This document shows positions 13,538 through 24,567 of a stretch of DNA of 64,000 bases, piece after piece. Origin of the DNA: Capnocytophaga cynodegmi DSM 19736 (GTDB lineage Bacteria; Bacteroidota; Bacteroidia; Flavobacteriales; Flavobacteriaceae). The position numbers and the translations under genes were made by a program. The notes beneath the pieces are model-generated. The model was given only the letters and a program-made list of their open reading frames with translations, did not search any database and was not told where the DNA came from. The stretch's first letter is position 1. Every line of letters starts with the position of its first letter. The DNA lies in contig NZ_KB900703.1 of the NCBI RefSeq assembly GCF_000379185.1, forward strand, positions 1 to 64,000. Reading direction: 5' to 3'.

Positions 13538-15313
13538 TTAATCAATTATTCCTATTTTTTTCATTAAAAAAGTGGCATTTTTGTTTTGGCAGACACCATC
13601 TCTGATTTTATAATCAAAATGAAGTTCATCATTTTCAATTTCTACTTCAAAACATTTATTTTGAATAATTTGCGGATATTTTTTAGCAAGTTGACACACC
13701 TCAATATCGTGCGTTGCGACAACCCCAAAGGCTTTCAGTGAAATAATTTTCTCAATTATCTTAATGGTTCCCAATTGTTTATCTTCTGAATTTGTTCCTC
13801 TCAAAAGCTCGTCTAAAAGTACAAAACAAATTTGATTTTCAAGCTTTTGTATAATTGTCTGAATTCGGCGTATTTCCGCAAAAAAGTACGATTTTCCATC
13901 ATTCAGAGAATCAGATAACCGCATAGAAACCAATATCTTCATAGGATGAACGACTGCCCTTTTAGCACAAACGGGCAAACCAACTGCCGTTAAAAGCATA
14001 TTTACACCCAAAGTCCGTAAAAAAGTGCTTTTTCCTGACATATTTGAGCCCGTTAAAATTACAAACGAGTTTTCTGTAAAAGACACCGAATTTGTAACCC
14101 TCTGTTTTTCAGCAATAAGTGGATGCCCAACTTCTTCAAAATATATTTGATAATCTGAATTTATTTCTGGAAAAACATATTTCGGATTGTTATATTTAAA
14201 GTTGGCAAAGCTAATAAACGCTTCCATTTCCCCGACAACATCTAACCAATCTTGTATTTGACTTACATACTGATTTTTCCAACGAATTAATCGACAATAG
14301 GTATGAAAATGATAAAAAGTGAAGCAATTTAGCGGAATTGACACTAAAACATTTCCTAAATTATCCAAATCATCTAACAAATTAGATAATTTTTGAATCA
14401 AAACACTTGCTTTTTCTTTATTCTGAAGTAATTTTTGCTGAATCTTAGTCAATTTTCCTGACTCAAAGTTTGAATTTTCAATAAAAACAATGCTTTTCTT
14501 ATATGAATACAAAATTTTATAAGCTCCTTCAAAACTTATTTTGTTACGTTGAATAACTCCGAATATGTAACCAAAAATTATTAAATTAATCAGAAATAGT
14601 AATTTTGCCCAATTATGAAATGAAAATGTTTCCGAAACAAATCCTAAAATAACACAAGTCATTAATAATAAAGGAGATATAAAAGTAAAAATTTGTATCC
14701 ATTTCGGAAAAGAAGTTTGCTTTTTTTGAGTCCAACTTTTGATATTTTCGTAAAAATCAGCAGAATCATTCACCTGTGATGTTAATGCAGAAAAATGTTG
14801 TCTCCAATCAATTTTTTCAGCCAACTCAGAGATACTTTGTTGATTTTCAACAATACTATTCAATTTAGGATTTAAAAAGTAAGAAGCCAAATACTTTTTA
14901 CCAAGAAATGTTTTTGCTCGGTTAATATGATGAAATACAGATTTTTCACCAAAAATATCCAAATCATACGCATACGAATGTGACTCTTCCTGAAATTCAA
15001 TCCCATTATCTGAAAAATACTCATTATTTTCCAAAAAACGGATTTCATATGTGTTGATTTCTATTTTGGATTTCTCTAATTTACGAGAAAAAGACACTTT
15101 TTTGTGCCAAATAACAAGAAACAAGAATAAAACTACTGAAAAAATAGCACTCAAAACAGATTTTACATCGAAATTTTGAAAACAAAAGTAAATCAAAACA
15201 ATAGCAGATACCGCAACAATGAGCCTTAAAAAACTTATTAAATTGTATTTTTTAGTCAGTTTTTTATATTTGGTAGTTGCTTCTTGTAGTTTTTCCTTAT
15301 AAATAGAAATCAT
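13538..15313 (-). CDS. membrane-anchored MutS-like ATPase
   Basis: A 591-residue protein whose last 200 residues are a MutS ATPase: Walker A GSNMSGKST near 420-430, FVLLDELLRGTN near 500-512, and the ATHD switch. The mismatch-recognition domain I of MutS is absent. Two hydrophobic pairs, at about residues 25-70 and 210-260, suggest membrane anchoring. A membrane-tethered MutS-related family exists in Bacteroidota and is often labelled DNA mismatch repair protein, but its role is unproven. A single gene on the minus strand. I would not name it mutS. Confidence 0.85.
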   Translation of the reverse strand: MISIYKEKLQEATTKYKKLTKKYNLISFLRLIVAVSAIVLIYFCFQNFDVKSVLSAIFSVVLFLFLVIWHKKVSFSRKLEKSKIEINTYEIRFLENNEYFSDNGIEFQEESHSYAYDLDIFGEKSVFHHINRAKTFLGKKYLASYFLNPKLNSIVENQQSISELAEKIDWRQHFSALTSQVNDSADFYENIKSWTQKKQTSFPKWIQIFTFISPLLLMTCVILGFVSETFSFHNWAKLLFLINLIIFGYIFGVIQRNKISFEGAYKILYSYKKSIVFIENSNFESGKLTKIQQKLLQNKEKASVLIQKLSNLLDDLDNLGNVLVSIPLNCFTFYHFHTYCRLIRWKNQYVSQIQDWLDVVGEMEAFISFANFKYNNPKYVFPEINSDYQIYFEEVGHPLIAEKQRVTNSVSFTENSFVILTGSNMSGKSTFLRTLGVNMLLTAVGLPVCAKRAVVHPMKILVSMRLSDSLNDGKSYFFAEIRRIQTIIQKLENQICFVLLDELLRGTNSEDKQLGTIKIIEKIISLKAFGVVATHDIEVCQLAKKYPQIIQNKCFEVEIENDELHFDYKIRDGVCQNKNATFLMKKIGIID

Positions 15314-15363
15314 ATTTATTATCTCCTATGTTTGTTATAAAAAATATCTAAGTAAAATAATCA

Positions 15364-15426
15364 TTACTTATTGGTAATAGTCACACCTATGTTAAGAGCA
15401 AAACGTTTATCCCTGTCGTGGAAATA
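15364..15426 (-). pseudogene. possible remnant of an outer-membrane barrel gene
   Basis: Just after the WG-repeat gene, the minus strand reads 20 codons without a start, YFHDRDKRFALNIGVTITNK, then TAA. Alternating hydrophobic residues at a C-terminus resemble the last strand of an outer-membrane barrel. It may be a relic left when the upstream cluster was inserted, or a chance reading. Confidence 0.25.
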
Positions 15427-15442
15427 CTATTGATGGTAATAT

Positions 15443-16147
15443 TTATACTTCAACCACTTCCTTACCTTCTTCATTGATTATTATCTTTTTCCCTCCAAAC
15501 TTTTCAACCAACGCAAAACCATTGTAAAAAGGCTCTATTATTAAATAACGCTCTTTGTATAATTCACGTCCCTGCTTATCAATGTGAAACCAACCCTTTT
15601 TATCCTTTGCTGTTGCAAAGTTTTTATGAAATACTCCTAAATCAAAAAACTGTTTATCATTGATATAATTTCCTTCTGCATCAATATGTTTAAAATATCC
15701 ATTTGGTAATTTCACGCACGCCACGCTGTCTTTAAAATCGCCTACATATAGATAATTTTCTTTATAGATTCGATTTCCATTTAAATCAATATGAAAATAT
15801 TGTCCGTTTTCATCTCTTACAGCACACAAATTCTCTTGATAATTTCCTGTCCATAAATATGATCTTGGATAGATTCTTTCTCCTTTTTCATTTATATGGA
15901 ACCATTGGTTGTGCTTATTAATAACTGATGCTCTATTACAATAATATCCGAAAGTACGTAGGTATCTTTTCTGGTACAATTCTTTTCCATTAAAATCTAT
16001 GTGATAGGCTCCAGATTCATCTAATACAGGAGCTAATCCTGGTGAGTGAAATTTTAAAACTTCTATAAACTTTCTGCCAAAAATTAGTTCTCCTTCATAA
16101 AGAAAATGTGTGGCTCTTTTAGATACTTTTATTTCTTTCCAATTCAT
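15443..16147 (-). CDS. WG-repeat protein
   Basis: A 234-residue protein built almost entirely of about six units of roughly 35 residues. Each starts with a variant of HIDxxGxxxYxxxYL and ends near a W, Y or F (for example YHIDFNGKELYQKRYL, FHINEKGERIYPRSYL). WG repeats are thought to form beta-propeller-like scaffolds. There is no signal peptide, so it should be cytosolic. It is the last gene of the six-gene operon, six bases after the carbamoyltransferase. It may be a scaffold or a specificity factor for the pathway; that is inference. Confidence 0.85.
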   Translation of the reverse strand: MNWKEIKVSKRATHFLYEGELIFGRKFIEVLKFHSPGLAPVLDESGAYHIDFNGKELYQKRYLRTFGYYCNRASVINKHNQWFHINEKGERIYPRSYLWTGNYQENLCAVRDENGQYFHIDLNGNRIYKENYLYVGDFKDSVACVKLPNGYFKHIDAEGNYINDKQFFDLGVFHKNFATAKDKKGWFHIDKQGRELYKERYLIIEPFYNGFALVEKFGGKKIIINEEGKEVVEV

Positions 16148-16153
16148 TATTTT

Positions 16154-17812
16154 TTATAATTTATGTAGTGTATTATTAATTACAACTGCTTGTAATTTCA
16201 TTTGTTTGGCTGATTGTAGTGCGTTTTCCGATGTATGAACGATAGGCTCTCCTTGGGTATTGAAAGAAGTGTTAATCAACGCTAAAACATTGTATTTTTC
16301 GTATAAATAACTTAATAATTTGAAAATAAATGGATTATCTTCTTGTTTTGAAATTACTTGAATTCGTGCCGTTTTGTTTACATGAGTTACTCCGCATAAA
16401 TCGTTTTCAAAATCTTTCTTTATAGTAAAATCTAGCAACATATATTTTGCTAAGTGATTCATTTTTTGAGTTGTAACTTTTTGAAATACTTTTTCCAACA
16501 TAATAGGAGCAACGGGACGATACCATTCGCGTTTTTTTATATCTACACTTAATTTTTGAGCAATTTCTTTGTCATTTGCCAAAGCTAACATACTTCTGTT
16601 TCCTAATGCTCTTGGACCTACTTCGGCATTATCGTTACATACGGCTATTACACCTTTTTGCATAATTATTTCTGCTGTTTGCTCTATTGTTTTTTGTGTA
16701 ATTTTATTTTTAGAAGAGCGTATTCCTACATTGTTTAAGTAAGGAGAATGCAGATGAATTTCATTACCTTTTTTCCACTCTAAAAAAGTGGCAGCTCCTA
16801 CACTCAGTCCGCTATCATTGCAACAAGGAGGAATAAAGACATCTTTAAAAAAATTGTTTTCTACAATTTTTGAATTAGTAACAATGTTTAACGCACAGCC
16901 TCCACTGTAATATAAGTATTCGGCTTGAGTTTGATTTTGTAAGTTTCTTATTTTCATAATGATATCTCTTTCAAAAATATATTGAAAAGTTGCGGCTACA
17001 TTTTGAAAGAAAGGATTTTTAGTATCAAAATTATCAATTTTAATTCCGAATGTTTTTTGAATTGAATTGAAAATAGCGTCTTGATTATTCCACGTTGTTC
17101 TGAAATAATGATGTTCTTTTAACCAATTTTCTATTTTTAAATCATAATTACCAAAACTTGCATACCCCATAAGCTTACCTGGCACACTGCAATGTTCGCT
17201 TGGTTTAGCTCCCAAAATCTGAAAAGACAGGGCGTTATCGTTAAAAAATTTGGAGAGATAACCCAATTCCCAATGGCATTCTATTAGATTCATTTTCCCT
17301 GTTTTGTAATGAAAAGCCGAAAAATTACCAAGGCTTGAACCACCATCAAGCGAAATGAGTAAACTATTTTCTTTAAATTTTCCAAAAAATGGAAGGCAAG
17401 AGAATATATGTGCCAATTCGTGAGGGCAATTGTAGGCGTTTATTTCTTTACTTCCCCTCAAATTATGCTGATAGGTAAAAAAGCCTTTTTGTAAATCGGT
17501 TGATAAATCTGTTTCTATGGACGACTCAAACCTAAATCGCCCATTTTTAGATATAAAAGCATTACCTACAAATGAATTAATGCTAACAAAATCAAATTCA
17601 TCAGGCAAATCTATTTGTTTATTTTCAATTAGATCTTCTAAAAATAAGTCCAAACGATTGTCGTATTTTCGTCTTGTGAGCCTTTCCAACTGTAAATATT
17701 GCAAAATTTTTCCGTTTTGCATAAGGCAAAGATTATGATCGTGTGTAAATTCTGGATACAGAAAATCGTTGCGATCTTTTATTCCGTATATTGCCAGAGT
17801 TGGTTTACTCAT
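16154..17812 (-). CDS. carbamoyltransferase, NodU/TobZ/CmcH family
   Basis: A 552-residue enzyme. The family uses carbamoyl phosphate and ATP to place a carbamoyl group on a hydroxyl of a sugar or antibiotic. The N-terminal Kae1-like part carries HELAHIFSC and LDGGSSLGNFSAF. The YYSGGCALN motif follows, and the C-terminal domain has EVGPRALGNRS (E397-S407) with KREWYRPVAP. The length is typical. Its start overlaps the NTase-phosphatase gene by eight bases. Two glycosyltransferase-like genes in the operon suggest a sugar acceptor, not proven. Confidence 0.9.
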   Translation of the reverse strand: MSKPTLAIYGIKDRNDFLYPEFTHDHNLCLMQNGKILQYLQLERLTRRKYDNRLDLFLEDLIENKQIDLPDEFDFVSINSFVGNAFISKNGRFRFESSIETDLSTDLQKGFFTYQHNLRGSKEINAYNCPHELAHIFSCLPFFGKFKENSLLISLDGGSSLGNFSAFHYKTGKMNLIECHWELGYLSKFFNDNALSFQILGAKPSEHCSVPGKLMGYASFGNYDLKIENWLKEHHYFRTTWNNQDAIFNSIQKTFGIKIDNFDTKNPFFQNVAATFQYIFERDIIMKIRNLQNQTQAEYLYYSGGCALNIVTNSKIVENNFFKDVFIPPCCNDSGLSVGAATFLEWKKGNEIHLHSPYLNNVGIRSSKNKITQKTIEQTAEIIMQKGVIAVCNDNAEVGPRALGNRSMLALANDKEIAQKLSVDIKKREWYRPVAPIMLEKVFQKVTTQKMNHLAKYMLLDFTIKKDFENDLCGVTHVNKTARIQVISKQEDNPFIFKLLSYLYEKYNVLALINTSFNTQGEPIVHTSENALQSAKQMKLQAVVINNTLHKL

Positions 17813-19244
17813 TTTTTAATATTTTTTGCTTCAATTTTTGAATTTGTTTGTCAGATAGACTACAACTTCTTAGATAAGGAATAATGCCTCCTTCTTTTTC
17901 AATAATTTCTAAAAAAGCGTCTATTTTATTTTTGTTAGTATCAACTTCTGTTGCCAGATAGTCCGTATAAATGGTTTCTTTATCAGCTTCCGAAAGCAAG
18001 TGCAAGAGAGACACAAAAGCTCCTGTTCTGTCTTTTCCTGCAAAACAATGAATCGCTACAGACTGATTTTCAGCTAAAATAGCTTCAATTGCCTTTTTTA
18101 TAGAGGACTTACCTTCTACCGCAAAAAAACGATAAGCGATTTGAATATCTGTTCCGTAATGGAAATTTTCTTTAAAATAATCTGTTTGTTTCCAAGGGTC
18201 AAAAGGAGTCCAACAATAATTGATTTTTTTTAATGAATTTTCGTTGTAACGCAGATTTTCATCTAATAATTCTCGGTCGGCACGTAAATCGATAACAGTT
18301 TTGATGTTTTTTTCTTTCAATAATTCATCAAAGAAAGATTGTTTTTGGAATAGCGTTAAAGTAGCCGTTCTGTAAATGATTCCTTCTTTTATTCGATTGT
18401 TATACAGGCTAATATCTCTGAAATTCCATAGATAATCGCGTTTGTAAATAGCTTCTAAAAAACTTTTAATTTCATTTATTTCTTGCTCAGAATGAATATT
18501 CAATCTTTCAAGAGCGGCATAGAAAAAATCTAGTAAGAATCGTTTTTTATCATTAGCTTTTTCAAGATTGGTTGTGGCGTTTAGTTTTTCTAAAAATTTT
18601 TCACCAGTCATTAGTATCGAAAAATGTTTCGGTAAATAATGTTGTTTGGTGTTTCCTAACGACAAATAATTGAGCTGAACAGCCATTTGTAAAGCTATAT
18701 TATAGTGAAAATAAAAGCGATACGAATCGCTTCGGCTGTGTAAATTAGAAGTTGTTTCAAATTCGTACAGAAAATTATCAGTAAGGTTTTTGCCCTTTGT
18801 GATGATGTCTTTTTGGGGTAAAATTGCCTGTTTTTCATCAGATATTTTTTTCAGGTGATTTTTTACATCTTCTTGTAAATCAGGCAAAACATAAATAAGA
18901 CTATAGTTTATGTCTGTTATTTCTGAACCTAAAAAATTTTTATCAATTTCAGAAAGATTTTTGTACCAAACGATTTCAGCCCTTGGACAATCTTCAAAAT
19001 AGATTACAATTCTGTTTCGTAAGTTATTTTGTAAAATTTTCAATGCAGAAGGAAAGATTTCCTTCATTTTTTTACCAAGAATTTCTGGATTAAATAATTT
19101 TTCATCAATCCAAATCGAATAATCTACATCTGATTTTACCGTTGCTTCCTTTCTAGCAAAAGAACCAATGAGTAGGGCTGTTTTTATCCCCTCAATCTCT
19201 TTAAATGAAGAATTTATTTTTTTGATAATTTCTAATTGTTTCAT
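17805..19244 (-). CDS. nucleotidyltransferase fused to a tyrosine-phosphatase-like domain
   Basis: A 479-residue two-domain protein. Residues 1-100 are a polymerase-beta-type nucleotidyltransferase with GSFAR (27-31) and SDVDYS giving D39 and D41. Residues about 110-280 are helical, like the C-terminal part of small NTases, without a canonical HEPN RNase motif. Residues about 285-479 are a Y_phosphatase3-like domain: YRTATLT, TVIDLRADREL, and the loop HCFAGKDRTG with C400 and R406. Both active sites look intact. The fusion is unusual. It sits between the glycosyltransferase-like and carbamoyltransferase genes; its substrate may be a nucleotide-linked intermediate, which is speculation. Confidence 0.82.
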   Translation of the reverse strand: MKQLEIIKKINSSFKEIEGIKTALLIGSFARKEATVKSDVDYSIWIDEKLFNPEILGKKMKEIFPSALKILQNNLRNRIVIYFEDCPRAEIVWYKNLSEIDKNFLGSEITDINYSLIYVLPDLQEDVKNHLKKISDEKQAILPQKDIITKGKNLTDNFLYEFETTSNLHSRSDSYRFYFHYNIALQMAVQLNYLSLGNTKQHYLPKHFSILMTGEKFLEKLNATTNLEKANDKKRFLLDFFYAALERLNIHSEQEINEIKSFLEAIYKRDYLWNFRDISLYNNRIKEGIIYRTATLTLFQKQSFFDELLKEKNIKTVIDLRADRELLDENLRYNENSLKKINYCWTPFDPWKQTDYFKENFHYGTDIQIAYRFFAVEGKSSIKKAIEAILAENQSVAIHCFAGKDRTGAFVSLLHLLSEADKETIYTDYLATEVDTNKNKIDAFLEIIEKEGGIIPYLRSCSLSDKQIQKLKQKILKNE

Positions 19245-19306
19245 TTTTTATGCTTTATAAAAATTGTAGATGCTTTCTATTATTAAAGCTAAAATTAGAT
19301 GTTTTT

Positions 19307-19986
19307 TCAATGAAATCTTTCCCTATATTTACTATTTTGTTTTAACATTTCAAAATTCTTCAAATGTAAAAAATAAGTATTATCTGTTACTTGATTAAAA
19401 TCACTTTCGTCCCAAATGTTTATTACCAAATCATTTAGCCAAAAATGCGGTAAAGAGCAAATATTTTCAGGTAAAACAGATTTCCATAACAATTCGTCAT
19501 TAGGTTCAGAAACAACCGATTGAAAACTTCGCTCCATCTGAGGAATATAATCTTCATTCAAATAATAAACCGCACAATTCACAACAGCCCAATAATTTTC
19601 AATGAAGGTAAATTTAGGCACGTTAGAATCAAAACATTTGTTATAGAAAAAGTCATCAATTGACTTCACAGAATATGTATCCCAATCTATCCACACAACA
19701 TCTTTGAATTCTTTTACAGCGTTTAGCATAATCCAATGTTTCATTTTATGAGCAGAGTCATAAATAATATCTTTTGGGGCATCATCACTTTATGAACATA
19801 TAACCCTTTATTTTGCAGTATTTTAGCCATCTCTATTGAGTCTGCATAACAAATTAACTTGTCTTTATACCAAGTATTTATTTCTAAGGATTGTTCTATC
19901 TCAGGCACTATAGTCGGATAGTTTGTCTTACCGTTTCTTGTATAAAAATATAACCCCGAAACGAAAGTTATTTCTTTTTGTATCAT
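19307..19986 (-). pseudogene. GT-A-like glycosyltransferase split by a frameshift
   Basis: Two frames, 19741-19986 (81 residues) and 19307-19744 (145 residues), overlap by an ATGA. Reading upstream from the second frame gives codons DIIYDSAHK, which continue the first frame's KVMMPQK naturally. The break lies at CCCCAAAAG (minus strand, 19779-19771); one extra A would restore a protein of about 227 residues. The restored protein has a DWD motif in VVWIDWDTYSV, as expected for a metal-binding GT-A glycosyltransferase. The start overlaps the radical SAM gene by four bases. It could be a sequencing error, a mutation or a slippage switch. Confidence 0.7.
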
Positions 19987-21008
19987 ATTTTTCTCATATT
20001 ACAAGTTCTGCACAAATCAATTTTTTTGTAATTTTTCACAAGGTTTTGATAAATATCGCTTTGCAATACCTCTTGGATACTTGTGTTTTGAATGTTTCCG
20101 AAATTTCCTAATGTTTGCCGTTTTTCATCAGGGGCACAGCAAGGGGAAATATTGCCCGTTGCAGAAATCCAAAGTTCTTTTTCCAAAAACGGACAATCAT
20201 AACTCTCTGGAATTTCGATGTTTTCGTTCTCTTGCAAAGGAACGATATTCTCTAATATTATCTTTTCTCCGTTGGCTTTGCGGTATTTTTCTTGTGCTTG
20301 GTGTGCTTGTTCTACATATTCGTTCCATTTTGATATGCTTTCAGGTGTAGCCTTCATTGACAGATGTTTTATTTCGTCAAAATGTGTCCAAAGTTGATGT
20401 CCCTTAACTCTATCCACTCCAAGCTCTGCGGCTAATTTTACAATGTCAGCCAATTCGTGCATATTGTTCTGCATAAATGTCAGCTGAAATGTAACACGAC
20501 AATAATAGCCCGTTTCAGCAAAATGTTCGTCTCTAATACGGATAAACTCTTTAACGTTTTCAACGGCTTGATTGAAATCAATTTTGAGCATTACTTTTTG
20601 TGAGGTTTCTGCCGTTGCACCATTCCAACTTATTTTTACATCGGTAGTAATAGGAACGATGAGTTTTGCCCATTCAGTAACATTTTTTTCGGTTGTTCGC
20701 GGAAATGTGCCGTTGGTTGTTAGGTTCATTTTTATATCATATTTGTAACACAAGGCTACAAAATCAGCGAAATACTTGTATATCAGAGGCTCACCCATTG
20801 TGGAAGGAATCATTTCGGTTACGCCTATTTTTTTGGCTTGTTCAAAAATGGGTTCTAACCACTCTTTGGGCATTCTTCGGTGTTTTCCGTTGAGTTTTTC
20901 TTTGATATAAGTTGAAAATGGGCTATGTTCTTCACACATAGTGCAACTTAAATTGCAATCTTCTGGGTTTGTGTCAAGCGTAACACGCCAAAGTTTATAT
21001 GCTTTCAT
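19983..21008 (-). CDS. radical SAM protein with SPASM-like domain
   Basis: A 341-residue enzyme with the radical SAM triad C18, C22, C25 (CNLSCTMC). The C-terminal segment has more cysteines (YDCPFLE, ISPCCAP, LCRTC), matching a SPASM or twitch auxiliary-cluster domain. Members modify ribosomal peptides or oxidise sugars; BtrN in aminoglycoside biosynthesis is an example of the second kind. The start overlaps the GT4 gene by 14 bases and the stop overlaps the next gene by four. With a carbamoyltransferase and glycosyltransferases nearby, a sugar substrate seems likelier, though no substrate is visible. Confidence 0.88.
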   Translation of the reverse strand: MKAYKLWRVTLDTNPEDCNLSCTMCEEHSPFSTYIKEKLNGKHRRMPKEWLEPIFEQAKKIGVTEMIPSTMGEPLIYKYFADFVALCYKYDIKMNLTTNGTFPRTTEKNVTEWAKLIVPITTDVKISWNGATAETSQKVMLKIDFNQAVENVKEFIRIRDEHFAETGYYCRVTFQLTFMQNNMHELADIVKLAAELGVDRVKGHQLWTHFDEIKHLSMKATPESISKWNEYVEQAHQAQEKYRKANGEKIILENIVPLQENENIEIPESYDCPFLEKELWISATGNISPCCAPDEKRQTLGNFGNIQNTSIQEVLQSDIYQNLVKNYKKIDLCRTCNMRKI

Positions 21009-22284
21009 CTGAAATAAATTTGCTGTAGATTTGTTCTAATTCTCTACAATGGTTTTGAATATCAGGAACACTTCCATCAAGTGAAAACAAATAGCCTTTT
21101 TTTCCCAATCGTTGCATTTTTTCAGGATTTGCCACTGCGTATTTTAATTGCTCTGCTAATGAGCTGACATCGCGATGTTTGAACAGAAGTCCGTTTACGT
21201 TGTGTTGGACGTATTCTCTCATACCGCCAAAATCAGCCGTAATTACAGGCACTTTACACGCCTGTGCTTCGTGAATAACAAGTGGAGAATTTTCACCCCA
21301 AATGCTTGGAACTACGATACAATCAACATTAGCAAAAACCAGATTTGTCAAATCTTGATTCATATATTCCCCTAAAAATTCTATTTTATTTTTTGAAGTA
21401 GAAGCCAATTCTTTCAGAGCATTGGTACTTTGTCCGTTAGGTCTGCCGAAAATCTTTAATGTGGCTTCTGTTTCAAGTTGTTTAAAGGCTTCAATTAACA
21501 GATTTACACCTTTTGCAGGAATATGCGTTCCAATGTAACCAAAAGTATAATTGATTTTTTCTTTTGATTTTGCTGTAGGCAAAAGGTATCCCGTTGGAAA
21601 TCCGTAATCTAAATAAATTATTTTATGACTTGGAACTTCAAAATCATTGATGAATCTATCTCTCAGATAATGAGCAGGAGCTATGAACAAATCAACCTTG
21701 TCAATGATGGCTTTTGTTTCTTCCATTCGCTGATGTACCCAATGAGTCCAATTCTCTATATCCAAATTTTCGTTATCTTCTTTTCCACTGAAATAAACAC
21801 GGTAACAGTTTGTTGCACATTTTGTGTCATCCTGTTTTTCACAAACTTGAAAATTATTGACCCTACCAATACTTCGTGTTAAAAATTGCCCACGCGGACA
21901 CATCAGCCAAAAATCGTGAAGTGTGTATACAATGGGAATTTGAACTTTATTCAATTCGTCAATCAAACCTGTAGAAAGATGATTTACGTGACCTACATGA
22001 GCAATATCAGGATTGAGTTCTTTGACAAGTTCAGCAAATTTATCATCCATTTGCTTATGGCGATAACCATCTTTGCCCTGCGGGTTATTTATTAAATAAA
22101 GCGTTAGGTTTTCGTTTATCTTTTGCTCACGAATACTGAAACAAGGAGCATATAAATTTTCCCCTCGTGTAAAAACGGAAACCTTATGATGTTTAGAAAG
22201 TTCATTACAAATAGATTGACTATACACCTCTGAACCAGCATTATAATTTGGCGGATAGCCGTGAATGATTTTAAGAATATGCAT
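20995..22284 (-). CDS. family 4 glycosyltransferase
   Basis: A 429-residue GT-B enzyme. The N-terminal half begins with KIIHGYPPNYNAGSEVYS, a typical GT4 acceptor-domain start, and the C-terminal half has YIGTHIPAKGVNLLIEAF and the donor-binding IHEAQACKVPVI segment. It should transfer a sugar from a nucleotide donor to an unknown acceptor. It is the first gene of the minus-strand operon running to 15443, overlapping the radical SAM gene by 14 bases. I found no TAnnTTTG promoter in the 237 bases upstream. Confidence 0.9.
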   Translation of the reverse strand: MHILKIIHGYPPNYNAGSEVYSQSICNELSKHHKVSVFTRGENLYAPCFSIREQKINENLTLYLINNPQGKDGYRHKQMDDKFAELVKELNPDIAHVGHVNHLSTGLIDELNKVQIPIVYTLHDFWLMCPRGQFLTRSIGRVNNFQVCEKQDDTKCATNCYRVYFSGKEDNENLDIENWTHWVHQRMEETKAIIDKVDLFIAPAHYLRDRFINDFEVPSHKIIYLDYGFPTGYLLPTAKSKEKINYTFGYIGTHIPAKGVNLLIEAFKQLETEATLKIFGRPNGQSTNALKELASTSKNKIEFLGEYMNQDLTNLVFANVDCIVVPSIWGENSPLVIHEAQACKVPVITADFGGMREYVQHNVNGLLFKHRDVSSLAEQLKYAVANPEKMQRLGKKGYLFSLDGSVPDIQNHCRELEQIYSKFISDESI

Positions 22285-22521
22285 AATTATTTTTTGGTAG
22301 ATTAATAAATTAAATTATTTTTTAGCATCTGCAACATCTAAAAGAACTTTTACTTGTAATCAAAAAGAGTCCAAGTACCACACAACAAACTAAAAGAAAG
22401 TAAATTCTATATACATTGAAATTTTACACTCTTCAATTAAAAATTATGTTTACAGATATAGCACTATTTGGTGTACTAATGCTTTTGTAAGAATATAGTT
22501 TTTTCTTAATATTCACAAATA

Positions 22522-24393
22522 TTACCTCCCCATATACACCAACAAAATGCTGATATCTGCGGGGGAAACGCCGCTGATACGTGAGGCTTGCGAAAGGGTT
22601 GTCGGACGGATTTTTTTCAGTTTTTCACGACTTTCAAACGAAATAGATGTCAGTTTATCGTAATTGAAGTTTTCAGGTATGCGAATGTCTTCCAAGCGGT
22701 TAAGTTTGTCGGCGTTGTTCTTTTCTTTTTCAATGTACCCTGCGTATTTTACCTCAATTTCCGTTTGTTCAATGATTTCTTTATCAATTTCATTAGCTTC
22801 TACGAATGATTTTACGCCCTCCAATTGTTGCAAATCGGCAATGGTAATGTTCGGACGCGAAAGTACTTTGAACATCTTGTCGCCTTGTTTCATTGGAGAC
22901 GAGTCGTATTTTTCCAAAATCGGGTTCGCTTCTTCAGGTTTGATACTCGTTTCCTTAAAAAACTCCACAAAAGCATTGGTTTTTGCTTGTTTTCTTTCCA
23001 AAACGTCCATTCGTTTTTGCGATGCCAATCCTAATGAAAAACCAAGAGGCGTAAGTCGTGCATCGGCGTTATCTTGTCGCAAAAGAGTACGATATTCTGC
23101 TCGTGAGGTGAACATTCGATAAGGTTCTTCCGTTCCTTTGGTAATCAAATCATCAATCAAAACACCGATGTAAGCCTCATTTCGTTTCAGAATGAAAGGT
23201 TCTTGTTCACGAATTTTCTGTACAGCGTTTATTCCTGCCATAATTCCTTGTGCGGCAGCCTCTTCATAGCCCGTTGTTCCGTTGATTTGTCCTGCAAAAT
23301 ACAGATTTTCAACAAGTTTTGTCTCCAACGTATGTTTGAGTTGCGTTGGTGGAAAATAATCGTACTCAATGGCATACCCTGGTCGGAAGAATTTCACATT
23401 CTCAAAGCCTTCCACCTTACGAAGTGCCTCAAACTGAACCTCTTCTGGAAGCGATGTCGAAAATCCGTTTACGTAGACTTCCACCGTGTTCCAACCTTCG
23501 GGTTCTACGAAAATCTGATGGCGGTCTTTGTCGGCAAATCGGTTGATTTTATCCTCAATTGATGGGCAATAACGCGGTCCAACGCCTTGGATTGCCCCAT
23601 TGAACATCGGTGAGCGGTCAAATCCTGTGCGGAGCAAGTCGTGTACTTCCTCGCTGGTGTAGGTCATATAACAATCCTTCTGAATTTGAAGCGGTTGTGT
23701 TTCTTCCGAAAAGGAAAATTTCTCAGGATTTTCATCGCCGGGTTGGGGAATCATTTTGGAATAATCAAGCGAACGACTGTCCACACGCGGTGGCGTTCCT
23801 GTTTTCATTCTTCCTGATTCAAATCCGTGAGAAACAAGGCATTCGGTAATCCCTTTGGAAGCCTTTTCACCGGCTCTTCCGCCTCCTAACTGCTTCATTC
23901 CTATATGAATAACTCCATTTAAGAAAGTTCCATTAGTCAGAATCACAGTTTGGGAATAAATAGGAATTCCCAAAGAGGTTTTTACGCCTTTTACCTGATG
24001 ATTTTCGATAATGAGGTCGGAAACCATATCTTGATAGAAGTCGAGATTGGGCAATCTTTCGAGTTGCAGACGCCATTCTTCGGCAAATCGCATTCGGTCA
24101 GACTGAGCTCGAGGACTCCACATCGCAGGACCTTTCGATTGGTTGAGCATTTTGAACTGAATGGCAGTTTTGTCGGTGATGATACCTGTATATCCACCCA
24201 AAGCGTCAATCTCACGAACGATTTGCCCCTTGGCGATGCCCCCCACCGCTGGGTTGCACGACATCTGTGCTATATTTTGCAATTGCATTGTGATGAGCAA
24301 GGTTTTCGCTCCCATATTGGCAGCAGCAGCGGCAGCTTCGGCTCCTGCGTGTCCGCCACCCACTACGATAACGTCATATTTTTCTTGAAACAT
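22522..24393 (-). CDS. mnmG: tRNA uridine-5-carboxymethylaminomethyl modification enzyme
   Basis: A 623-residue FAD protein that works with MnmE to modify wobble uridine in tRNA. The dinucleotide-binding motif VGGGHAGAEAA is at the N-terminus, CNPAVGGIAKG follows at about 50-60, and the GidA C-terminal domain is complete. The ATG at 24393 (MFQEKYDV) is chosen because the 12 extra upstream codons are not family-like. Composition is GC-richer than the flanks. An SGNH hydrolase gene and ybeY follow upstream on the same strand. Confidence 0.96.
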   Translation of the reverse strand: MFQEKYDVIVVGGGHAGAEAAAAAANMGAKTLLITMQLQNIAQMSCNPAVGGIAKGQIVREIDALGGYTGIITDKTAIQFKMLNQSKGPAMWSPRAQSDRMRFAEEWRLQLERLPNLDFYQDMVSDLIIENHQVKGVKTSLGIPIYSQTVILTNGTFLNGVIHIGMKQLGGGRAGEKASKGITECLVSHGFESGRMKTGTPPRVDSRSLDYSKMIPQPGDENPEKFSFSEETQPLQIQKDCYMTYTSEEVHDLLRTGFDRSPMFNGAIQGVGPRYCPSIEDKINRFADKDRHQIFVEPEGWNTVEVYVNGFSTSLPEEVQFEALRKVEGFENVKFFRPGYAIEYDYFPPTQLKHTLETKLVENLYFAGQINGTTGYEEAAAQGIMAGINAVQKIREQEPFILKRNEAYIGVLIDDLITKGTEEPYRMFTSRAEYRTLLRQDNADARLTPLGFSLGLASQKRMDVLERKQAKTNAFVEFFKETSIKPEEANPILEKYDSSPMKQGDKMFKVLSRPNITIADLQQLEGVKSFVEANEIDKEIIEQTEIEVKYAGYIEKEKNNADKLNRLEDIRIPENFNYDKLTSISFESREKLKKIRPTTLSQASRISGVSPADISILLVYMGR

Positions 24394-24567
24394 ATTTCTA
24401 TTTGGCTTTGAGCAAAAGGCATTAGGCAATAGATACTTGTGATTTTTGAGTTTTTTTGCTTAATACTTTATGCATTTTAGTGATTTCGTTCTATTTTTTT
24501 TAGATTATTTGACTTATTTACACGTGTTTTTGATATATTATTACTATTTTTTTGGATTCTATGATGC

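Follow-up and report, generated by a model that had tools for sequence, protein, structure and literature searches.

The subject of this analysis is a six-gene unit on the minus strand at positions 15443–22284 of a 64,000-nucleotide stretch of Capnocytophaga cynodegmi DSM 19736 (NCBI RefSeq assembly GCF_000379185.1, contig NZ_KB900703.1, positions 1 to 64,000), referred to below as the window. Three of its genes, encoding a GT4 glycosyltransferase, a radical SAM protein (rSAM) and a WG-repeat protein, recur elsewhere as a fixed core accompanied by modules that are swapped from locus to locus. The features are as follows.

20995–22284, minus strand: GT4 glycosyltransferase, core gene 1 (429 residues; E-x7-E motif at residues 331–339)
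19983–21008, minus strand: radical SAM protein with a SPASM/twitch-like C-terminus, core gene 2 (341 residues)
19307–19986, minus strand: GT-A-like gene, frameshifted (overlapping frames 19741–19986, 81 codons, and 19307–19744, 145 codons)
17805–19244, minus strand: nucleotidyltransferase (NTase)-phosphatase fusion (479 residues; Pfam Polbeta/NTP_transf_2 and Y_phosphatase3)
16154–17812, minus strand: NodU/TobZ-type O-carbamoyltransferase (552 residues; Pfam Carbam_trans_N and _C)
15443–16147, minus strand: WG-repeat protein, predicted beta-propeller, core gene 3 (234 residues)
15314–22521, no strand assigned: island holding the unit, between mnmG (22522–24429) and a MutS-like gene (13538–15313)

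The place, strand and joints of the unit (−14, −4, +62, −8 and +6 bases along the operon) agree with an initial annotation made from the sequence, but the third of its six genes consists of two frames. These align with residues 1–76 (66%) and 84–217 (75%) of one 229-residue protein of locus L031, and because they match consecutive parts of a single homologue the gene is frameshifted, naturally or in assembly; homologues in L031 and L044 occupy a single frame. The gene has no Pfam match and is a putative glycosyltransferase on the strength of a DWD motif. The proposal that two glycosyltransferases supply the glycosidic steps is not supported, the second gene being broken; the other five genes are intact. 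The family labels are upheld by Pfam for the GT4 (Glycos_transf_1, 1.7e-32), the radical SAM and SPASM regions of the rSAM (the SPASM match being C-terminal), the carbamoyltransferase and the NTase-phosphatase, whereas the Pfam WG match lies under its cut-off (20.7 vs 25.6 bits). The rSAM has a CxxxCxxC motif at residues 18–25 and further cysteines at 272, 290/291, 333 and 336, a pattern that suggests a single extra cluster. The fusion, with motifs G-S...D-x-D and C-x5-R, comprises a LinB/ANT-like nucleotidyltransferase half (residues 1–269) and a PtpB-like phosphatase half (residues 271–477, HCFAGKDRTG). The carbamoyltransferase contains HxxxH and GPRALG motifs and both Carbam_trans domains, which place it in the NodU/TobZ family, and is related to TobZ by match. 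The motifs of these four proteins presumably serve the roles usual for them.

The island was compared with the corresponding region of two congeners, L123 and L124, out of 15 genomes with a strong match to the MutS-like gene. In the sister species L123, whose MutS-like gene is 84% identical, mnmG and the MutS-like gene flank a different open reading frame (ORF) of 251 residues, and homology to the window ends at the end of mnmG and returns where the MutS-like gene begins. In L124 (positions 1–1440), where the MutS-like gene is also 84% identical, a similar ORF adjoins it, and the site is variable there too because only the tail of mnmG and another frame lie upstream. By eye, the 251-residue ORF (L123:692–1447) is TPR-like and the upstream frame of L124 is Fic-like. 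The other 12 congeners with a strong match show no mnmG in the 1.5 kb examined. The fusion, rSAM and core WG gene were not found in the 19 other species of the genus examined. Among 20 genus, 249 family and 395 phylum genomes a full-length fusion occurs in the window's own genome only, the other genomes with a match (6 and 17) carrying one half or a part, and searches of plasmids and phages with the fusion each gave one match to the phosphatase region. Single-protein searches of viral contigs revealed no close relatives of the fusion, rSAM or carbamoyltransferase. Two of the 395 phylum genomes, including that of the window, carry the core WG gene (375 and 368 bits; next-best WG protein, 86), and the same two carry the core rSAM (581 and 578 bits). 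The cassette is apparently mobile, and may have moved as a unit.

To survey the core, 84 loci were assembled from a genome scan with the rSAM alignment alone (80 loci, the highest-ranking of 394 or more relatives, remoter rSAM relatives lying outside the sample), a viral scan (2) and annotated records (2: H3 and H5 of the strong matches H3–H7), and GT4 and WG were scored in them by tblastn at E 1e-4. GT4 is found in 82 loci and WG in 83; all three core genes are present together in 81 of 84, so their recurrence exceeds chance, and in the three loci lacking the full core (L042, L085 and L080) the rSAM lies at the extreme end of the retrieved piece. Wherever found, GT4 is on the same strand upstream of rSAM (within 120 bases in 81 of 82 loci; 1237 in L037) and WG is on the same strand downstream (within 100 bases in 43 of 83 and within 2.5 kb in 78). 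GT4 and rSAM share one ORF in 50 and occupy two in 30 of the 80 loci scoring both. In the window they are separate overlapping genes (20995–21008), and in its nearest relatives a single ORF. WG and a methyltransferase share one ORF in 35 loci. The expectation of a conserved system is thus borne out, and the WG protein, which the initial annotation had thought an unusual partner, belongs to the fixed core.

Pairwise distances of GT4, rSAM and WG correlate at r 0.85–0.90 over 74 loci, and none of 999 permutations gave values as high. Ten named phyla account for 67 of the 74 rows of the core tree, and seven rows have no phylum, one of them titled archaeon. The loci are partly non-independent (L108 and L065 have the same core, and L070 and L072 are near-identical), and L083, which has a stop in its fragment, was excluded from the WG alignment. 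A set of 39 rows termed Bacteroidota-type includes an Ignavibacteriota metagenome-assembled genome (MAG; L055), an unassigned MAG (L036), the viral-collection locus L108 and the window; the Bacteroidota label of some genomes is inferred. Separately, L077:682–3999 is a single frame of 1105 codons with epimerase, GT4 and radical SAM profiles, which ties a nucleoside diphosphate (NDP)-sugar step to the core. An apparent WG-rSAM fusion in L085, read from position-only labels, was rejected, the frame-aware ORF table having no rSAM there.

The modules around the core were tabulated within 7.5 kb of the rSAM centre for 83 loci and the window (84 rows; L085 omitted). O-methyltransferase occurs in 53 rows, histidine phosphatase (HisPhos) in 33, epimerase in 25, PtpB-type phosphatase (PTPc) in 24, an RtcR-like regulator in 22, NTase in 18, carbamoyltransferase in 8, phytanoyl-CoA dioxygenase in 7, ABC transporter in 5, threonine aldolase in 5 and the GT-A-like gene in 4. 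The two phosphatases are unrelated and co-occur in 0 of 84 loci (Fisher p 5.9e-7, not corrected for kinship), and the phosphatase type switches at least 11 times along the core tree; because of this mutual exclusion and repeated change they seem to fill one step. The window falls in a strongly supported clade of 10 rows, 8 of which have the histidine phosphatase, and its nearest relatives, Bizionia echini and others (best identity 81%), are of that type. Unlike these clade mates the window carries the PtpB-NTase fusion and the carbamoyltransferase, and so has a tailoring set distinct from that of its closest relatives. Cultured carriers of the core include Bizionia echini DSM 23925, whose version consists of three ORFs (GT4-rSAM, WG and phosphatase), and Azospira oryzae DSM 21223. 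The closest layout is that of L059, a Saprospiraceae MAG with GT4, rSAM, fusion, carbamoyltransferase and WG in the window's order, and L099, an archaeal MAG, has five of the six families together in a different order. The co-occurrence proposed for the six families is therefore seen for five of them; the exact six-gene set is present in 0 of 83 other tabulated loci.

Structure prediction gave a WG model with a mean pLDDT (predicted local distance difference test) of 96.4, whose top Foldseek matches are BamB and designed propellers (E about 1e-9) and which superposes on eIF2A with Z 10.5 and a root mean square deviation (rmsd) of 3.6 over 230 residues. The Z scores of its propeller matches lie between 8 and 11, against the 7 to 8 usual for models that resemble nothing clearly, and the protein is predicted to be a beta-propeller. 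An alignment of 55 WG sequences has 25 invariant positions, including H34, H49, H84, N102, Q104, D137, H154, H174, K175, H188, E205 and N209, with the histidines spaced by about 35 residues. Because the invariant polar residues vary from repeat to repeat, they probably form a binding or active site more than a scaffold. In the fusion model (pLDDT 87.9), residues 1–269 match the lincosamide nucleotidyltransferase LinB (Z 16.6, rmsd 3.1, 257 residues) and ANT(6)-Ib (Z 13.3), and residues 271–476 match PtpB (Z 22.1, rmsd 2.8, 192 residues). Although these predicted folds are shared with LinB/ANT and PtpB, the fusion differs from LinB and PtpB in being one joined protein within an operon, at 19 and 26% identity in structural alignment. 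For the tail of the rSAM there is a weak match to BtrN (E 4.7e-5), on a par with other radical SAM chains. No solved relatives were found for GT4 at E 1e-20 or for rSAM at E 1e-5, and looser searches gave distant ones only.

The RtcR-like gene lies upstream of the operon in 22 of the 84 loci, is divergent in 21 of these, and in 21 of the 22 belongs to a locus of the Bacteroidota-type set. One RtcR-like protein was scanned, and its best PADLOC match is RtcR_PspF1 (CARF-AAA-HTH, 269 bits), the NCBIfam RtcR model scoring below its cut-off. RtcR-like proteins unlinked to rtc genes often adjoin restriction-modification genes, according to the available part of PMC4012209. A sigma-54 promoter between regulator and operon was considered and set aside: the stricter pattern occurs in 2 of 22 intervals, and the mean score exceeds that of shuffled sequences weakly (6.8 vs 5.3 of 12 letters, 21 intervals). 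Viperin genes are present in at least five loci (L035:7844–8704, L048:6769–7620, L052:4675–5394, L101:14338–15258 and L107:4009–4938). They precede GT4 by 12 bases in L035, 138 in L052 and about 1.1 kb in L048, and in L101 and L107 they are on the opposite strand, kilobases from the core. Prokaryotic viperins (pVip) are radical SAM proteins like that of the window, but the viperins of these loci score 205–290 bits with pVip models and the window rSAM, which has a C-terminal SPASM match, scores only 33 bits, short of a strong match. Flanking ORFs of 20 Bacteroidota-type loci (120 of 152 eligible) were scanned with PADLOC models at 1e-10, and 302 models were matched compared with 52 in a rough control (20 arbitrarily chosen stretches of other genomes in the phylum, with 120 of their 195 ORFs scanned). 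The commonest models in the flanks, each found in 2 or 3 of 120 proteins, are those of type I, II and IIG restriction, MADS, AriA and viperin.

A described counterpart of the core is the Undecim Cluster of Wolbachia phage WO (WD0611–WD0621; also pREIS2-type copies), which likewise has GT4-rSAM, fused as UC3, followed by WG. PHROG 21308, a GT4-rSAM fusion, led to phage WO (48%) and to three Arsenophonus plasmids (48%), and in the two annotated records examined the next gene starts with a WG domain about 48–51% identical to the window's. The window's GT4, rSAM and WG are 48, 48 and 51% identical to those of the Undecim Cluster; the GT4 is 48% identical both to the N-terminal half of Wolbachia UC3 and to Arsenophonus, and GT4 and rSAM belong to the UC3 family. 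The remaining genes differ. UC4 joins WG to an O-methyltransferase domain (available part of PMC4701759), whereas the window's WG protein stops after WG (234 residues) and Pfam finds no methyltransferase among the island's frames. The Undecim Cluster adds an epimerase, a phytanoyl-CoA dioxygenase, an ABC transporter and two threonine aldolases; the dioxygenase, transporter and aldolases are absent from the island and present in L026, and the window has instead the NTase-phosphatase, the carbamoyltransferase and the broken GT-A-like gene.

In the portion accessible, PMC9203015 defines the Undecim Cluster and its UC3 fusion, reports transfers to Rickettsia, Cardinium and Phycorickettsia and high expression, and proposes roles in exopolysaccharide or lipopolysaccharide, methylation and export. 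The cluster is duplicated in an obligate Wolbachia, and its gene functions are described as currently unknown in the accessible text of PMC12801941; the literature consulted demonstrates no chemical step. Protein expression in a Wolbachia-infected cell line and the WG-methyltransferase fusion of WD0614 were reported in 2015 (PMC4701759, seen in part), with possible syntenic homologues of WD0613 and WD0614 in Haliangium, Desulfovibrio, Saprospira and Capnocytophaga granulosa; the core is therefore known elsewhere in Capnocytophaga, since C. granulosa is listed there. That no pathway with this gene set had been described stands with respect to function, but part of the core had been seen as WD0613–WD0614 (PMC4701759 and PMC9203015, as far as available). 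Word searches found, in the library covered, no paper joining WG repeats with radical SAM or glycosyltransferase; such searches can miss, because PMC4701759 describes the fusion under another repeat name. None was found for REIS with aminoglycoside antibiotic terms or for BtrN with BtrP; viperin with RtcR gave one unrelated item, and the gene set is not described in the available part of PMC7159879. As far as these searches go, WG as a third fixed core part, the swaps of phosphatase and other modules, the breadth across phyla, the propeller and LinB-PtpB assignments, and the CARF, viperin and restriction neighbourhood are new.

Pathways to 2-deoxystreptamine aminoglycosides resemble the window in BtrN, through the weak match of the rSAM tail, and in TobZ, through the carbamoyltransferase. 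These pathways, with BtrM and BtrP among their enzymes, also share the logic of a GT4 plus a phosphatase. Aminoglycoside clusters include an aminocyclitol synthase and an aminotransferase, and Pfam detects neither among the island's frames, to which that search was confined. We know of no WG counterpart in these pathways.

We favour, at a probability of roughly 45%, the reading that the window carries a variant of a modular, horizontally moving pathway to a small glycoside, built on the invariant core of GT4, twitch/SPASM rSAM and WG. A small glycoside is preferred because the module enzymes are of small-molecule classes (TobZ relatives, Methyltransf_2, a LinB/ANT-like NTase and a gene like NAD-dependent epimerases/dehydratases), because Pfam finds no polymer machinery in the island, and because a GT4 paired with a phosphatase is the arrangement used by pathways with a phosphorylated acceptor, such as those to sucrose and mycothiol. 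In the chemistry that we infer, GT4 would transfer the sugar of an NDP-sugar onto a common, probably phosphorylated metabolite, and the rSAM would oxidise, epimerise or rearrange the glycoside while the WG propeller holds it. The phosphatase, of PtpB type in the window and of histidine type elsewhere, would then take off the phosphate, and tailoring enzymes would cap hydroxyls, with carbamoyl and possibly nucleotidyl groups in the window and O-methyl groups elsewhere. The product would be a small glycoside, probably acting inside or near the producer, and in many Bacteroidota the RtcR-like CARF regulator may switch the pathway on. Such a regulator suggests chemical defence induced by stress or phage, which is perhaps the likeliest use in Bacteroidota. 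Of the initial proposal of a carbamoylated, oxidised surface or secreted glycoside, a small tailored glycoside thus persists as the best fit and a surface glycan is unsupported.

Several observations weigh against this pathway or its defensive use. The island contains no scaffold-making gene, which leaves the acceptor unspecified, and most versions lack an exporter, an ABC gene being present in 5 of 84 loci. No recognised phosphatase is present in 27 of 84 loci, 20 of which have more than 7 kb of downstream sequence. A second His_Phos-like family occurs in 3 of those 27 (Pfam-confirmed for one), and because the ORF caller overlooked the WG genes of L077, L102 and L109, which were recovered by tblastn, HisPhos or PTPc may likewise have gone undetected in loci of high GC content. 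The distance correlations drop for the pairs with rSAM when only the Bacteroidota-type set is taken (0.68 and 0.63, the third being 0.89). The regulator is not in the window's island, the window's genome gives AAA-region matches only, and the immediate flanks, mnmG and the MutS-like gene, are housekeeping genes. In the PADLOC comparison models overlap, one gene may match many, and the genomes are unmatched. Finally, SPASM/twitch enzymes frequently act on peptides.

This last point bears on the unlikely alternative that rSAM and GT4 modify a peptide or protein, or that the WG propeller is itself the substrate. The NCBIfam matches of the rSAM are peptide or cofactor maturases, those listed all falling below their cut-offs, and WG is as constant in the loci as the enzymes are. 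Nevertheless, most loci have no small ORF family (C6 in 10 and C12 in 5 of 84, ORFs under 60 codons not being called), and an ORF shared by WG and a methyltransferase is more in keeping with a working component than with a product. Just as unlikely, in our estimation, is modification or repair of RNA or nucleotides, either resembling RNA end-healing or yielding a viperin-like nucleotide analogue. The combination of RtcR-like regulator, NTase, phosphatases and methyltransferase is reminiscent of RNA end-healing systems, and the upstream, mostly divergent regulator gene of 22 loci and the viperin gene 12 bases before GT4-rSAM in L035 also favour this reading. However, the matches of the NTase are to antibiotic nucleotidyltransferases, the methyltransferase falls in the Methyltransf_2 class, and the carbamoyltransferase matches to TsaD and Sua5 are weak and below cut-off. 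Furthermore, no RNA ligase family, RtcB ligase or RtcA cyclase was found in the window's frames or in ten scanned representatives, other neighbours not having been scanned singly.

Decoration of a surface or exopolysaccharide, suggested for the Undecim Cluster in the accessible portion of PMC9203015, would accommodate the GT4 and the epimerase genes of 25 of 84 loci. It is quite improbable here, since a surface polysaccharide locus would be expected to encode a flippase, a polymerase and an initiating transferase, and Pfam detects none of these in the seven frames of the island. To our knowledge such pathways also offer no place for a WG propeller, an NTase or a phosphatase. A chance neighbourhood of unrelated sugar genes, to which the absence of the exact six-gene set elsewhere might point, can practically be dismissed, being contradicted by the recurrence of the core and the swapping of modules.

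The small-glycoside pathway admits a bolder form, conceivable but on balance doubtful, in which GT4, rSAM and WG form the heart of a kind of inducible chemical defence not described so far. A CARF-sensed signal would lead to a radical-modified glycoside, exchangeable phosphatases and tailoring enzymes would trim and cap it and so diversify the product, the system would operate beside viperin's chain terminators or substitute for them, and the Undecim Cluster of Wolbachia would be the same machine in insect symbiosis. The retention of the core across ten named phyla, a phage and symbiont plasmids points to one product or reaction. Identifying the product would give the Undecim Cluster a testable function and reveal what the RtcR-like, sometimes viperin-linked island makes, and the swap between unrelated phosphatases singles out a pathway step that could be assayed.

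Two minor features of the neighbourhoods may be recorded. Between the RtcR-like regulator and the operon lie three different small ORFs of 96–107 residues (L035:7543–7842, L039:8155–8478 and L057:8326–8616), of which one resembles DUF4258 below the cut-off and one has CxxC pairs by eye. In L137, a copy of the core in another genome of the window's family, two DNA-methyltransferase-like genes (L137:4300–7598; PADLOC MTase_II, one with PglX as its best match) lie directly downstream of the core.

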